A DNA stretch of 20,744 nucleotides from a virus, in the IMG/VR virus record IMGVR_UViG_3300042465_004824, positions 1 through 20,744 of that record. The stretch is one strand, 5' to 3'. Under the pieces are notes generated by a model, which worked only from the letters and a program-made list of their open reading frames with translations, was not told where the DNA came from and ran no database searches. Positions 2,984 to 20,744 of the stretch are shown here, one piece after another. The stretch's first letter is position 1, and the number at the start of each line of letters is the position of its first letter. Position numbers and translations under genes: made by a program.

Positions 2984-3012
2984 TCAATCTCAATCTCTAA
3001 TCAAATAACAAT

Positions 3013-4161
3013 ATGCCTAACACCCTCACAAACCTAGTATCCGACGCCTACGCTGCGTTGGATGTCGTATCTCGCGAACTCGTGGGATTCATTCCATCCG
3101 TAACTCGTGACGCTTCTGTCGATCGTGTTGCAGTTGGTCAAAACGTTCGTTCTTTCAAAACCGCTGCCAACACCGCAGGGAAAGACATCGAAGCAGCAAT
3201 GGCATTCCCAGCCGCAGCTTATCAGACCGTCGGCAACGACGCGATCACGATCAGCAAAGCTCGTGCATTCCCATTCAGCTGGACCGCCGAAGAGCAATAC
3301 ACGGTCAACGCCGGTGCCGGAACTCTTTCCGTCGCTCAAGACCAGATCGCTCAAGCCTATCGCGCAGCCGTGAATGAGATCGAAAACGACCTCGCTGACG
3401 CAGCCGCACTTGGCGCTTCCGGTGGTATCACACCGAACGCAACCACTCTTTTCAGCGCAAGCCTGAAAGATGCAGCCTTCGCGAAAAAATTCCTCGATGA
3501 CCGCGGCGCTCCACTCAGCGACCGTCACATGGTCCTCAACACGACTGCCTCCGCAGCAATGCGCGGTCTGACTCAGCTCACCAACGTTGGTGATTCTGGA
3601 GAAGACTCGCTGCTTCGCCAAGGAGTTCTGAACAACCTCATGGGCTTCGCTGTCCGTGAGTCTGCTCAAGTCGGATTGACTGCTACCGCTACCGGCGCAA
3701 GCTACCTTGTTGACTTAACTGCTGGCTATCCAGTAGGCACCACCGTGATCCATGTTGACACCGGCACCGGCACGATCCCAGCAGGATCGCTCGTGACCAT
3801 CGGCGGCAACAGCTATATGGTCGTGACTGGCTTCGCTGGAGACGGCGACGGCGACATCACAATCGCTGCACCGGGTCTCATCAAAGCGATCGCCAACAAC
3901 GATCCCGTGACTGTCCTTTCCGCACAAGACGCGAACGCAGCTTTCAGCCGCAACTCAATCGTTCTTGCAACTCGCCTCCCAGCTGTGCCACTCAGCGGCA
4001 ATGACCTCGCTCTTATGCGCGAAGTCATCACCGACCCACGCAGCGGCCTGAGCTTCGAGCTTGCTGTCTATCCCGGGTATCGCATGGTCCACTACGAGAT
4101 CGGCGTGCTTTGGGGTGCCAAGGTGATCAAGCCAGAGCATATCTGCTTGTTGACCGACTAA
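3013..4161 (+). CDS. Major capsid protein, P22-coat-like
   Basis: This 382-residue shell protein has the signature C-terminal region of the P22 coat-like family: AFSRNSIVLATRLPAVP, then TDPRSGLSFEL, YPGYRMVHYEIGVLWGAKVIKPEHICLL. The N-terminal part (NTLTNLVSDAYAALDVVSRELVG) is also typical. A Gly/Thr-rich beta insertion around residues 230-295 (PAGSLVTIGGNSYMVV, then DGDITIAAPGL) probably forms an inserted domain, as P22 coat has. The ATG is preceded by aatcaaataacaat, with no Shine-Dalgarno site. The gene lies between the protease and a strong terminator, consistent with a separate highly expressed unit. Codons are enriched in GCC, ATC and CTC, more than in flanking genes, as expected for an abundant protein. 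Confidence 0.85.
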   Translation: MPNTLTNLVSDAYAALDVVSRELVGFIPSVTRDASVDRVAVGQNVRSFKTAANTAGKDIEAAMAFPAAAYQTVGNDAITISKARAFPFSWTAEEQYTVNAGAGTLSVAQDQIAQAYRAAVNEIENDLADAAALGASGGITPNATTLFSASLKDAAFAKKFLDDRGAPLSDRHMVLNTTASAAMRGLTQLTNVGDSGEDSLLRQGVLNNLMGFAVRESAQVGLTATATGASYLVDLTAGYPVGTTVIHVDTGTGTIPAGSLVTIGGNSYMVVTGFAGDGDGDITIAAPGLIKAIANNDPVTVLSAQDANAAFSRNSIVLATRLPAVPLSGNDLALMREVITDPRSGLSFELAVYPGYRMVHYEIGVLWGAKVIKPEHICLLTD

Positions 4162-4187
4162 CTTCTAGTGTTCATGTATTAGTGAAG

Positions 4188-4224
4188 AAGCCGTCCTCAG
4201 AAATGGGGGCGGCTTTGTGCTTTT
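4188..4224 (+). terminator. Rho-independent terminator after the capsid gene
   Basis: An 11-pair stem joins AAGCCGTCCTC (4188-4198) to GGGGGCGGCTT (4205-4215), with two G-U pairs and a six-base loop, and is followed by tgtgctttt. It sits 26 bases after the capsid stop codon and would separate head transcripts from the neck and tail genes. Confidence 0.8.
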
Positions 4225-4225
4225 A

Positions 4226-4248
4226 TTGACAAGCTGGCTTTATAGATG
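4226..4248 (+). promoter_or_regulatory. TTGACA element 14 bases before the connector gene
   Basis: TTGACA (4226-4231) begins one base after the terminator U-tract. TTTATAG directly precedes the ATG at 4246. A restart signal is expected here because the terminator should stop upstream transcripts, but the spacing from TTGACA to the A/T-rich box is only 8-9 bases. Confidence 0.42.
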
Positions 4249-4557
4249 AGCGGAATTGATAGTTTCCTTTTGAGCGCACTTGACGAGGTTGATGCGATGC
4301 TCGGCACGGTCACAATGACCGTCAGCGGACAAACCTTCGCGGTCGTGATCGACGACGTGACAAAATCGACAATCGGCGACGATGTAGGCTTGACTGCCGA
4401 ATATGATGTGATCGCCTGCGCGCAGCCTGCCGACGTGACCAATCCGAAAAGCCTTGTCAATAAGCGATGCACTCTCGACGGATCCGATTATCGGATCAAT
4501 CAAGTCAGGGTCGGAACGATCGCGGTCCACTTCATTCTCACAGATATAAACAAATGA
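4246..4557 (+). CDS. Putative head-tail connector (gpFII-like)
   Basis: This 103-residue protein has a beta-rich layout: an N-terminal helix (SFLLSALDEVDAMLG), strands around TVTMTVSGQTFAVVIDD, and a closing SDYRINQVRVGTIAVHFIL. Small proteins with a variable-loop centre, a 'value of the field must be redefined' middle and a YRIxxV...xL ending are common at this position as head-tail joining or stopper proteins like lambda gpFII. No single motif is decisive, so the role comes mainly from position after the capsid gene and before the tail completion gene. Its stop overlaps the next start as ATGA, showing translational coupling. Confidence 0.5.
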   Translation: MSGIDSFLLSALDEVDAMLGTVTMTVSGQTFAVVIDDVTKSTIGDDVGLTAEYDVIACAQPADVTNPKSLVNKRCTLDGSDYRINQVRVGTIAVHFILTDINK

Positions 4558-18571: not shown

Positions 18572-19285
18572 ATGACATCCGAACTATCCGAAATCACTCC
18601 GCTCATCCTCGCTGGGGATGGGTATCAACTGACCATCTCCCCAGAGGCCGAGGCTCGCAAGGCAGCGCTCATCGAGAAGGCATCCGCGGTCACGACCGTT
18701 GCCAGCAACGACGACAGCTCCGCCGCACAGCGCCACACCCGCGCTCTCGCTGCCATGCGCATCGAGGTAGAGAAGTCACGCAAGCTCGTCAAGGAGCCGG
18801 TCAACCGGATCGGCAAGATGATTGACGCCGCCGCTGCCGACTTCCTAGCCGAGATCGTCGCCGAGGAGAACCGCATCAAGAAGCTTGTCGGCGACCATGC
18901 CGAGGAGGTCTTGCGCATCAAAGCAGCGAAGGAGGCGGAAGAGCGCAAGGCGTTCGACGCTGCTCGGGCAGCGAAGGAGGAGGCTGAGAACGGCGGGATC
19001 GCCGCAGTCATCGCCGCAAAGAAGGCTCTCGCCGACAAGCTCCAAGCGAGCAACGAGGTCGCCGCGACCAAACTCTCCGACGGCATCCGCTTCGCTTGGG
19101 ACTTCGAGGTCATCGACATCAATCAACTGCAATCGCTCCGCAACGACCTTGTCACCGTCGAGCCGAAGCGAGCCGCTATTCTCGCAACAATCAAGGACAT
19201 GGAGGAACACGGCTATGCAGTCGAGGCACTCGCCGAGACCCTCGGCATCCGCGCATTCAAAAAACCAATCGTCAGCAGCCGATGA
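18572..19285 (+). CDS. Coiled-coil recombination-type protein
   Basis: This 237-residue protein has a long central coiled coil (about residues 90-160, EEVLRIKAAKEAEERKAFD) and a C-terminal part FAWDFEVIDINQLQSL, LVTVEPKRAAILATI and GIRAFKKPIVSSR. The WxFEV(T/I)D...I(K/L)...G-I/V-R ending resembles phage proteins that accompany RecT-type recombinases and are often annotated DUF1351-like. It lies between a single-strand-binding-like gene and a nuclease gene, consistent with a recombination or replication module. The start is ATG 18572 with leader acaataacacaa. Its stop overlaps the nuclease start (ATGA). Confidence 0.5.
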   Translation: MTSELSEITPLILAGDGYQLTISPEAEARKAALIEKASAVTTVASNDDSSAAQRHTRALAAMRIEVEKSRKLVKEPVNRIGKMIDAAAADFLAEIVAEENRIKKLVGDHAEEVLRIKAAKEAEERKAFDAARAAKEEAENGGIAAVIAAKKALADKLQASNEVAATKLSDGIRFAWDFEVIDINQLQSLRNDLVTVEPKRAAILATIKDMEEHGYAVEALAETLGIRAFKKPIVSSR

Positions 19286-19557
19286 GAGAGTCAACCATCG
19301 AGAAGGCGGTCTGCGCGTATGCGAAAGCCAAGGGCTGCATCGTCATGAAGCTGGCCGGGCAGAACCAGCGCGGCCAGCCCGACCGGCTATTCATCCGCGC
19401 CGGCAAGGCACTCTTCCTTGAGTTCAAGTCTCAAGGCAAGAAGCCGACCGCGCTCCAAATCAAGTGGCTCATCGACCTTACCAACCAAGGCATGAACGCC
19501 ATGTGGTGCGACTCGATACCCGACGGAAAAAAACTTATCGACAGGATCTTTCTTTAA
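19282..19557 (+). CDS. VRR-NUC family nuclease
   Basis: The start is ATG 19282 in an ATGA overlap; the open frame also continues upstream inside the previous gene. The 91-residue protein has the compact VRR-NUC pattern: Glu7 in STIEKAV, QPDR with Asp34, LFLEFKSQG with Glu47 and Lys49, then ALQIKWL with Gln59. These match the D...(E)xK core of PD-(D/E)xK enzymes, which cleave DNA junctions or flaps. The length matches stand-alone phage members. It is probably a junction or recombination nuclease working with the preceding two proteins. The same frame contains the stop TAA at 19555 and the next ATG 12 bases later. Confidence 0.8.
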   Translation: MRESTIEKAVCAYAKAKGCIVMKLAGQNQRGQPDRLFIRAGKALFLEFKSQGKKPTALQIKWLIDLTNQGMNAMWCDSIPDGKKLIDRIFL

Positions 19558-19569
19558 ACCAACCAAAAA

Positions 19570-20744
19570 ATGTGGATACTACCAAAACAATTACACACCT
19601 CAGCCTTTGTGCCGGATACGGAGGCATTGATCTCGGACTTAGCCGAGCAATCCCAAATCTGCGCACAGTCGCTTTTTCTGAGATCGAAGCCTTCGCTTGC
19701 GCGAACTTGGTCGCAAAAATGGAAGCGGGACTCTTGGTCGCAGCTCCTATCTGGACGAATCTTAAAACCTTCCCTTGGTCAGAGTTTCGTGACCGCGTGG
19801 ACATCCTCTCTGGAGGTTATCCCTGTCAGCCATTCTCTGCAGCTGGAAAGCGGCTCGGAAAAGACGACCCAAGACACCTCTGGCCTTGGATTGCAGATGG
19901 AATTGTTTCCATGCGACCCAGAGTCGTCTTCTTCGAGAATGTCGAAGGACATATCAGTCTTGGACTCAGAGAGGTCATTGAAGATCTGGAAAGACTTGGT
20001 TACAACTCGACGTGGGGAGTATTCTCTGCGCGTGAAGTCGGCGCACCTCACCAAAGGAAACGAGTGTTTATCCTGGCCGACCGTGACGGCAAACGAGGAC
20101 AGTTATCGGATTGGTGGAAACTCACAGCAGAGTCATTGTCTGTCAGCGATGGCGAGACGCGGAGAGCTTGGCCTAGCCGCCCAGGTCAAGCCCAGCACGG
20201 ATGGGAGCCGCCTAGAGTCGTGGGCAACGCCGAGTACGATGGATCACATCAATGTAGTGAGGAGGCCAGAGGAACGAAGTCAGGCGGCGAACAAGGGCGG
20301 GTGCAAAAACTTGAGGGAGGAGGTACATCAATGGGCGACTCCTCAACAGATGCCACAGACGGATGCGAGTTGGCCAACACCAGCAGTCAAGGATGTGACT
20401 GGCGGCCCGTACAAGACCGAACTGGTCAATGGTCAGTTTCGCAGATACCACAACCATACAGAGGAAAATCCAGTGGCATACGGAACGAATTTAAAAGATG
20501 CGGTGAGAGTGATGGAGACATGGGCAACGCCGAGGGCGGGATGCCCAAGCAGTCCAGTGCCGGGGACTGGCGGGAAGGTGCTGGAGGAGCAGGTGAGGGG
20601 AGGCAACTGGGCAACACCGCAGGCAGATTGCAGAACCAAACCAATGCATCCCGAAAGACTAGGGGGTGGGCAACCAACTCTAAAATCTCAAACTCAAACT
20701 GGGACGGGCAAACTGAATCCACGCTGGGTGGAGACTCTGATGGG
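19570..20744 (+). CDS. Overlapping ORF with W-(P/A)-T-P modules, in the +1 frame of the methyltransferase (3'-partial)
   Basis: This frame opens at ATG 19570, 12 bases after the nuclease stop, in the caaccaaaaa context shared with other starts. It has no stop to the end of the window (391 codons). It begins MWILPKQLHTSAFVPDTEAL. From residue about 169 it shows W-x-T-x modules: WPTVTANED (20074), WATPSTMDH (20221), WATPQQMPQ (20332), WPTPAVKDV (20371), WATPRAGCP (20521) and WATPQADCR (20608). It ends in view with LNPRWVETLMG. These modules and the LNPxWVExLMG phrase occur in proteins often annotated as phage methyltransferase parts. Here the frame runs through the whole methyltransferase gene, so it may be a true overlapping gene. 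Its N-terminal half is Ser-rich and has no recognised domain. Confidence 0.6.
   Translation, partial: MWILPKQLHTSAFVPDTEALISDLAEQSQICAQSLFLRSKPSLARTWSQKWKRDSWSQLLSGRILKPSLGQSFVTAWTSSLEVIPVSHSLQLESGSEKTTQDTSGLGLQMELFPCDPESSSSRMSKDISVLDSERSLKIWKDLVTTRRGEYSLRVKSAHLTKGNECLSWPTVTANEDSYRIGGNSQQSHCLSAMARRGELGLAAQVKPSTDGSRLESWATPSTMDHINVVRRPEERSQAANKGGCKNLREEVHQWATPQQMPQTDASWPTPAVKDVTGGPYKTELVNGQFRRYHNHTEENPVAYGTNLKDAVRVMETWATPRAGCPSSPVPGTGGKVLEEQVRGGNWATPQADCRTKPMHPERLGGGQPTLKSQTQTGTGKLNPRWVETLM
19572..20744 (+). CDS. DNA cytosine-C5 methyltransferase (3'-partial)
   Basis: This frame uses GTG 19572, inside ATGTG with the overlapping ORF start, and stays open to the end of the window (391 codons, no stop). 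It carries C5-methyltransferase motifs in order: motif I LSLCAGYGGIDLGL (residues 10-23), motif IV GGYPCQPFSAAGKR with catalytic Cys85, motif VI FFENVEGH (Glu122-Asn123-Val124) and motif VIII APHQRKRVFILAD (Gln161 to Arg164). After residue 168 follows the variable, Gly/Ser/Glu-rich region with VGNAE, MGDSS, LANTSS, MGNAEG and LGNTAG units. The later motifs IX and X would lie beyond the window. It probably modifies phage DNA to evade host restriction. Alternatives in the leader: the frame is open upstream, but the GTG is the best-placed start. Confidence 0.85.
   Translation, partial: MDTTKTITHLSLCAGYGGIDLGLSRAIPNLRTVAFSEIEAFACANLVAKMEAGLLVAAPIWTNLKTFPWSEFRDRVDILSGGYPCQPFSAAGKRLGKDDPRHLWPWIADGIVSMRPRVVFFENVEGHISLGLREVIEDLERLGYNSTWGVFSAREVGAPHQRKRVFILADRDGKRGQLSDWWKLTAESLSVSDGETRRAWPSRPGQAQHGWEPPRVVGNAEYDGSHQCSEEARGTKSGGEQGRVQKLEGGGTSMGDSSTDATDGCELANTSSQGCDWRPVQDRTGQWSVSQIPQPYRGKSSGIRNEFKRCGESDGDMGNAEGGMPKQSSAGDWREGAGGAGEGRQLGNTAGRLQNQTNASRKTRGWATNSKISNSNWDGQTESTLGGDSDG

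Follow-up and report, generated by a model that had tools for sequence, protein, structure and literature searches.

We analysed the whole of virus record IMGVR_UViG_3300042465_004824 (20,744 nt, hereafter the window) and found that its 3' end carries two long frames, A and B, which overlap on one strand and are both conserved and constrained. On comparative sequence evidence the double coding is real, and it is this evidence, not single-sequence chance, that settles the matter. We consider it likely that a single phage C5-cytosine DNA methyltransferase (MTase) is encoded here as two subunits, although there are no expression, interaction or activity data.

The two-frame locus is cut by the end of the record at position 20744, and the window also encodes portal, head protease, major head and tape-measure genes. 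The coordinates are listed in Table 1. The gene directly upstream (19282-19557) matched the phrog_93 endonuclease (6e-21) and, weakly, a Holliday junction resolvase family. An Rfam scan and a tRNA scan gave no matches.

Table 1. Coordinates of the two frames and their motifs in the window
Feature	Position	Strand	Description
Frame A	19572..20744	+	C5 cytosine methyltransferase, putative large subunit; carries motifs I-VIII in window; Pfam PF00145, E=3e-33; cut by record end
Frame B	19570..20742	+	+1-frame overlapping gene; PHROG_1008 (1.8e-13); putative motif-IX subunit with W-x-T-P modules; cut by record end
Dual start ATGTG	19570..19574	+	B begins at the ATG and A at the GTG 2 nt downstream
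A motif I, CAGYGGIDLG	19608..19637	+	Columns invariant in alignment A4
A catalytic motif IV, GGYPCQPFS	19812..19838	+	PCQPFS invariant
A motif VI, ENVEGH	19935..19952	+	Located in window sequence
A motif VIII, QRKRVFIL	20052..20075	+	3' end overlaps first W-P-T-V module of B
B six W-(P/A)-T-(P/V) modules	20074..20619	+	Starts 20074, 20221, 20332, 20371, 20521, 20608
B LNPRWVETLMG	20713..20744	+	Start of motif-IX equivalent (LNPRWVETLMGLPVGWTM in L003); near-invariant in alignment A3

A first-pass annotation, made from the sequence alone, had described A and B as open for 391 codons from ATGTG and the third frame as closing early. Both frames did run stop-free to the record end, and the third frame was interrupted by 22 stops, beginning with its 20th codon. 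Motifs I, IV, VI and VIII of A, and the six modules and LNPRWVETLMG of B, were all located as described, and the first module does begin where motif VIII ends. The DNA under the modules reads as repeats of the V-G-N-A-E / L-A-N-T-S type in frame A. The uniform-base estimate of about 1e-8 for the chance of such openness was overstated for a single sequence. When synonymous codons were shuffled with the A protein and its codon usage fixed, B contained 5.6 stops on average and was open with P of about 1e-4; the N half of B alone was open with P=0.056, which is not rare.

Both gene ends are present in the homologous locus L003, whose A is 97.7% identical to the first 215 residues of the window A. 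The stop codons of both frames are visible there: A spans 3003-4322 (440 aa) and B spans 3001-4287 (429 aa), with the B stop 35 nt upstream of that of A. Motif X (LLGNGVVPATA) lies at the end of A in L003 and would fall past the record end in the window.

Conservation of and selection on both frames

We collected 103 distinct loci by scanning IMG/VR with B and with A as queries and adding Phage C75C1 from GenBank. Most were found using A, and since A was the query, B openness is unselected in these loci. Openness of B was scored across the length of A, leaving out the last 105 nt, with synonymous codon shuffling as the null. The results showed that B was stop-free in 102 of the 103 loci versus 0.86 expected, while frame C of the same loci contained 15 stops on average. 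None of the 102 has a B stop before the motif-VIII junction, and the exception, L122, stops later. The B of Phage C75C1, in which GenBank annotates only A, was 31.8% identical to the window B over all 391 residues (E=5e-33). In that phage too, the MTase has recombination and replication genes around it, forming a block that includes exonuclease, Erf, SSB and DnaB.

The start codons of A and B were 2-11 nt apart in all 103 loci. The layout was ATGTGG in 63, the ATGACATGG type in 29 (ATG of B at -5, ATG of A at 0), the ATGATATGG type in 6 (ATG of B at -2, ATG of A at +3) and other in 5, so that the dual start is achieved by at least three different sequence solutions. The overlap measured 1.2-1.7 kb and B was 282-628 aa long, with 0-7 W-x-T-P modules. 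In most loci B stopped slightly upstream of A, the commonest gap being 17 nt.

Several loci depart from this layout. In L122 (IMGVR_UViG_3300037508_000881, roughly 3815-4400), an HNH-endonuclease-like ORF is apparently inserted in the motif-IX codons of B (LNPRWV/CVLMN..., the slash marking the junction), which cuts B to 282 aa; frame A stays open through the insert and then reaches motif X. This most conserved site may have received a homing element or an intron. In L036 (3001-4884), B lacks its usual stop and continues into the downstream ORF (MSDIFDDLFDPNAP...), giving a 628-aa fusion. At the 3' ends of L050 and L051, B is about 220-230 nt longer than A, by which L050 gains another W-P-T module. 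In L129, a conserved Trp at codon 148 of A is replaced by TGA with the rest of A and the whole of B intact, reflecting either a nonsense mutation or a sequencing error.

We then sorted substitutions by their effect in A and in B, using simple counts with a transition weight of 2 and no multiple-hit correction. Neighbouring single-frame genes of the same contigs served as controls, in three identity bins. Frame C of the same loci was dropped as a control owing to codon-position bias (1.5-2.7; about 1.8-2.8 in ordinary genes too). With the switch to neighbouring genes, the N-half result for A-nonsynonymous changes weakened, but the A-silent test remained clear. Among A-silent changes, the ratio of B-altering to B-silent rates was 0.38, 0.36 and 0.43 in the N half and 0.33, 0.49 and 0.36 in the C half, versus 1.00, 0.95 and 1.25 in the controls. 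B-altering changes were thus 2-3 times rarer than changes silent in both frames, and no such bias was seen in the neighbouring genes.

Among A-altering changes, the B signal was 0.29-0.46 in the C half versus 0.72-1.01 in the controls. In the N half it was 0.55-0.85, overlapping the controls, and the N-half case therefore depends on the A-silent test, stop avoidance and the starts. The third/first codon position divergence ratio of A was about 2.0 in the N half and 0.6-0.7 in the C half, versus 2.5-5.1 in the controls. These ratios indicate that A and B are both constrained, with A dominant in the N half and B in the C half. In split MTases of the M.EcoHK31I type, a target-recognition domain is predicted on the large chain; the variable region of A was weakly constrained and predicted to be unstructured, and B was constrained over the same stretch. 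Genuine double coding, the reading favoured by the first-pass annotation, is supported by the 103 loci, and the relaxed selection in B that would have spoken against it was not found: B is under purifying selection. Selection along the length of B is read from these counts, and its translation is inferred in the absence of expression data.

Partition of methyltransferase motifs between A and B

The canonical MTase motifs were divided between the two frames. Motif IX was found in none of the A proteins from the 98 complete loci, and motif X (DNRTDELRLLGNGVVPATA) stood at the end of A in 93 of them. In complete copies, the motif-IX equivalent of B reads LNPRWVETLMGLPxGWT. Motif X, of the same sequence (DNRTDELRLLGNGVVP), was in B and missing from A in L088 and L089, where both A proteins ended in a different, cysteine-rich tail. 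Motif X can thus lie on either subunit.

In profile comparisons, B matched single-chain enzymes in their C-terminal half. PHROG_1008 ('DNA methyltransferase') matched the L003 B (7.6e-18, profile positions 36-279 of 329), the C75C1 B, the B of Acinetobacter phage ABMM1 (5e-28) and a Paenibacillus phage internal gene (6e-72). It also matched the downstream genes of the annotated overlapping pairs in Dylan (1e-59) and ArV1 (2e-74), and residues 196-388, the C-terminal half, of the single-chain ShiLan gp70 (2e-61). With hhalign, LNPRWVETLMGLPVGWTM of B corresponded to LAPAFSEWMMGWPAGWVT of single-chain MTases (E=3.8e-5), and the first ~177 residues of A aligned with the N half of these enzymes (100%, E=5.9e-47). 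The motif-IX segment of B had no Pfam match when compared with PF00145, and its assignment rests on position and on homology to the single-chain phage enzymes. B is thus unlikely to be an unrelated protein. Its function, given as unknown in the first-pass annotation, is narrowed by homology to that of a putative motif-IX, specificity-side subunit.

AlphaFold modelled A confidently at residues 1-175 and about 420-440, whereas residues 180-415 had pLDDT 34-60 and hardly any secondary structure. With Foldseek, A aligned to M.HaeIII/M.HhaI over their large domain alone (about 170-180 of 325 residues). Together these predictions indicate that A lacks the small, DNA-recognising domain. The model of B was poor (mean pLDDT 53, pTM 0.28), with only helices 43-61, 70-80 and 130-161 reasonable, and for this reason we claim no target-recognition fold for B. 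Searches of Pfam and PDB with B returned no match; its N-terminal 165 residues, which mostly overprint the catalytic domain, likewise matched no Pfam or PDB family.

A search with B in a second clade (ABMM1 type) yielded 160 loci from bacterial genomes and viral contigs. The bacterial genomes included Pseudomonadota, Bacillota, Bacteroidota, Verrucomicrobiota and others, and some loci are surely prophages. Per B ORF, frame A had 0.5 stops versus 16.6 in frame C. A carried motif IV in 146/160 and motif X in 146/160, and B carried motif IX in 135/160 and motif X in 0/160. The ATG of B lay 4 nt downstream of the A start in 114 of 135 loci, a spacing also found in Leptospira plasmid p2 and Salmonella phage ABTNLsp11242. 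B was constrained in this clade as well: in the C half, omega_B given A-nonsynonymous changes was 0.15 [0.12-0.19], without a neighbouring-gene control. Judged from sequence, the two-frame layout recurs in hundreds of phages and in bacteria of many phyla, and the second protein is usually unannotated.

We propose that ribosomes initiate at both adjacent starts and give A and B separately, translation being inferred. A would be the large catalytic subunit, in which a long unstructured linker connects the AdoMet-binding/catalytic domain (motifs I-VIII) to a C-terminal motif X. B would supply what A misses, namely motif IX and the W-x-T-P modules, which occupy the variable (target-recognition) position of single-chain relatives. 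By inference, A and B may associate as a heterodimer, and it would be mainly B that selects the sequence at which this enzyme methylates DNA of the phage (or host) genome. Its role would probably be protection of phage DNA from host restriction, which is also inferred.

Alternative readings of B

The two-subunit reading has four competitors. B may be a real, translated and selected protein with a separate job, such as anti-restriction or regulation of A, and not an MTase subunit. The N-terminal 165 residues, without relatives, would fit this, as would the extension of B past A in L050 (extra W-P-T modules) and L036 (downstream-ORF fusion). We regard it as unlikely, however, because the C-terminal half of single-chain MTases is a homologue of B, because B has the motif IX that A is missing, because motif X switches between A and B, and because the 160 second-clade loci, although retrieved with B, had A in the other frame in nearly all cases.

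Programmed ribosomal frameshifting near motif VIII could instead fuse the N half of A to the C half of B. The first B module starts exactly at the end of motif VIII, and the single-chain actinophage enzymes look like such a joined product. However, reaching motif X in A would require a second shift back, and the B start and full N-terminal half, which a frameshift product does not need, are kept and selected in 103 loci, leaving very little room for this mechanism. The related proposal of the first-pass annotation, one ancestral protein split by a frameshift, holds in part: single-chain phage C5 methyltransferases have a C-terminal half homologous to B, and the overlap of B with the catalytic domain is additional to that homology.

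That only A is functional, with B open through composition and codon usage, is hardly credible. The window alone (about 1e-4) and the A-driven open N half (P=0.056) would leave space for it, but 102/103 loci were open against 0.9 expected, the start is conserved, B-specific constraint was found relative to neighbouring-gene controls, and 14 stops interrupt the +1 frame of the single-frame enzyme E. coli dcm; at this sampling the comparative data already refute it. A sequencing or assembly frameshift that divided one ORF, which L031 resembles in that its frame contents are swapped past about codon 200, is refuted for the window family, since the layout recurs in more than 100 distinct, independent contigs, finished phage genomes and bacterial genomes, which also excludes a base missing near 20080.

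Related systems, distribution and significance

The target of M.EcoHK31I, a naturally two-polypeptide C5 MTase, is YGGCCR. Lee, Kam and Shaw reportedly found in 1995 that its beta ORF (528 nt) is nested, in a different frame, within the alpha ORF (927 nt) and that both proteins are required. Like that enzyme, as its nesting is reported, the present locus encodes B within the A gene in another frame. It differs in that B starts beside the A start, the overlap covers the whole length of A (1.2-1.7 kb), B is longer (282-628 aa) with repeated W-x-T-P modules, and the variable region of A looks unstructured. M.EcoHK31I carries motifs I-VIII and X on its larger chain and IX on the smaller (PMC3404938), the division also seen between A and B. 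M.AquI has motifs I-VIII on the large chain and motif IX and the distal variable region on the small chain (PMC3404938); its motif X is on beta. It shares with the enzyme proposed for our locus a C5 MTase divided between two chains with motif IX on the second, but motif X is on A in 93 of our loci and on B only in L088 and L089.

Dylan gp7/gp6 and ArV1_067a/b are AquI-like phage forms with partial overlap and motifs IX and X on the second chain. The single-chain ShiLan gp70, Filuzino gp68 and Graduation gp47 have an A-like N half followed by a motif-IX segment matching that of B (LNPRWVETLMGLPVGW), and ShiLan and Filuzino also have PTP modules; these actinophage MTases differ in having every motif in one frame and no dual coding. 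The 'g62 internal gene' of Paenibacillus larvae phage Lily and its equivalents are annotated as a +1 ORF within a cytosine MTase gene, and the Arcticfreeze copy is a PHROG_1008 member. In these phages the start of B is internal and B is shorter (234 aa in Arcticfreeze). In an unrooted MTase tree, single-chain enzymes were nested among split and dual ones. With a Dcm outgroup, whose branch is very long, the placement shifted, and the direction between dual, split and fused forms is therefore unresolved.

Apart from M.EcoHK31I and M.AquI as precedents, we found no account in the open-licence literature that describes such overlaps in general. Compared with M.EcoHK31I, the near-complete overlap, the longer modular B and a distribution unreported in that literature are new. 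To our knowledge, prokaryotic overlaps of more than 1 kb with both frames constrained are rare. With less assurance than for the two-subunit reading, we lean towards the view that full-length double coding of C5 MTase halves is pervasive and largely unannotated in phages and bacteria of many phyla, that the N-terminal ~165 residues of B form a functional module without known relatives, and that overlapping, split and fused forms interconvert as motifs move between frames.

The locus has a built-in functional test, because A-silent changes can switch off B and vice versa. Automatic annotation usually retains one of the two frames, and the overlap accounts for many 'hypothetical' or 'internal' genes at phage MTase loci. 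MTase constructs codon-optimised for frame A only would drop a probable subunit. The overlapping, split and fused versions provide a natural series of one enzyme.
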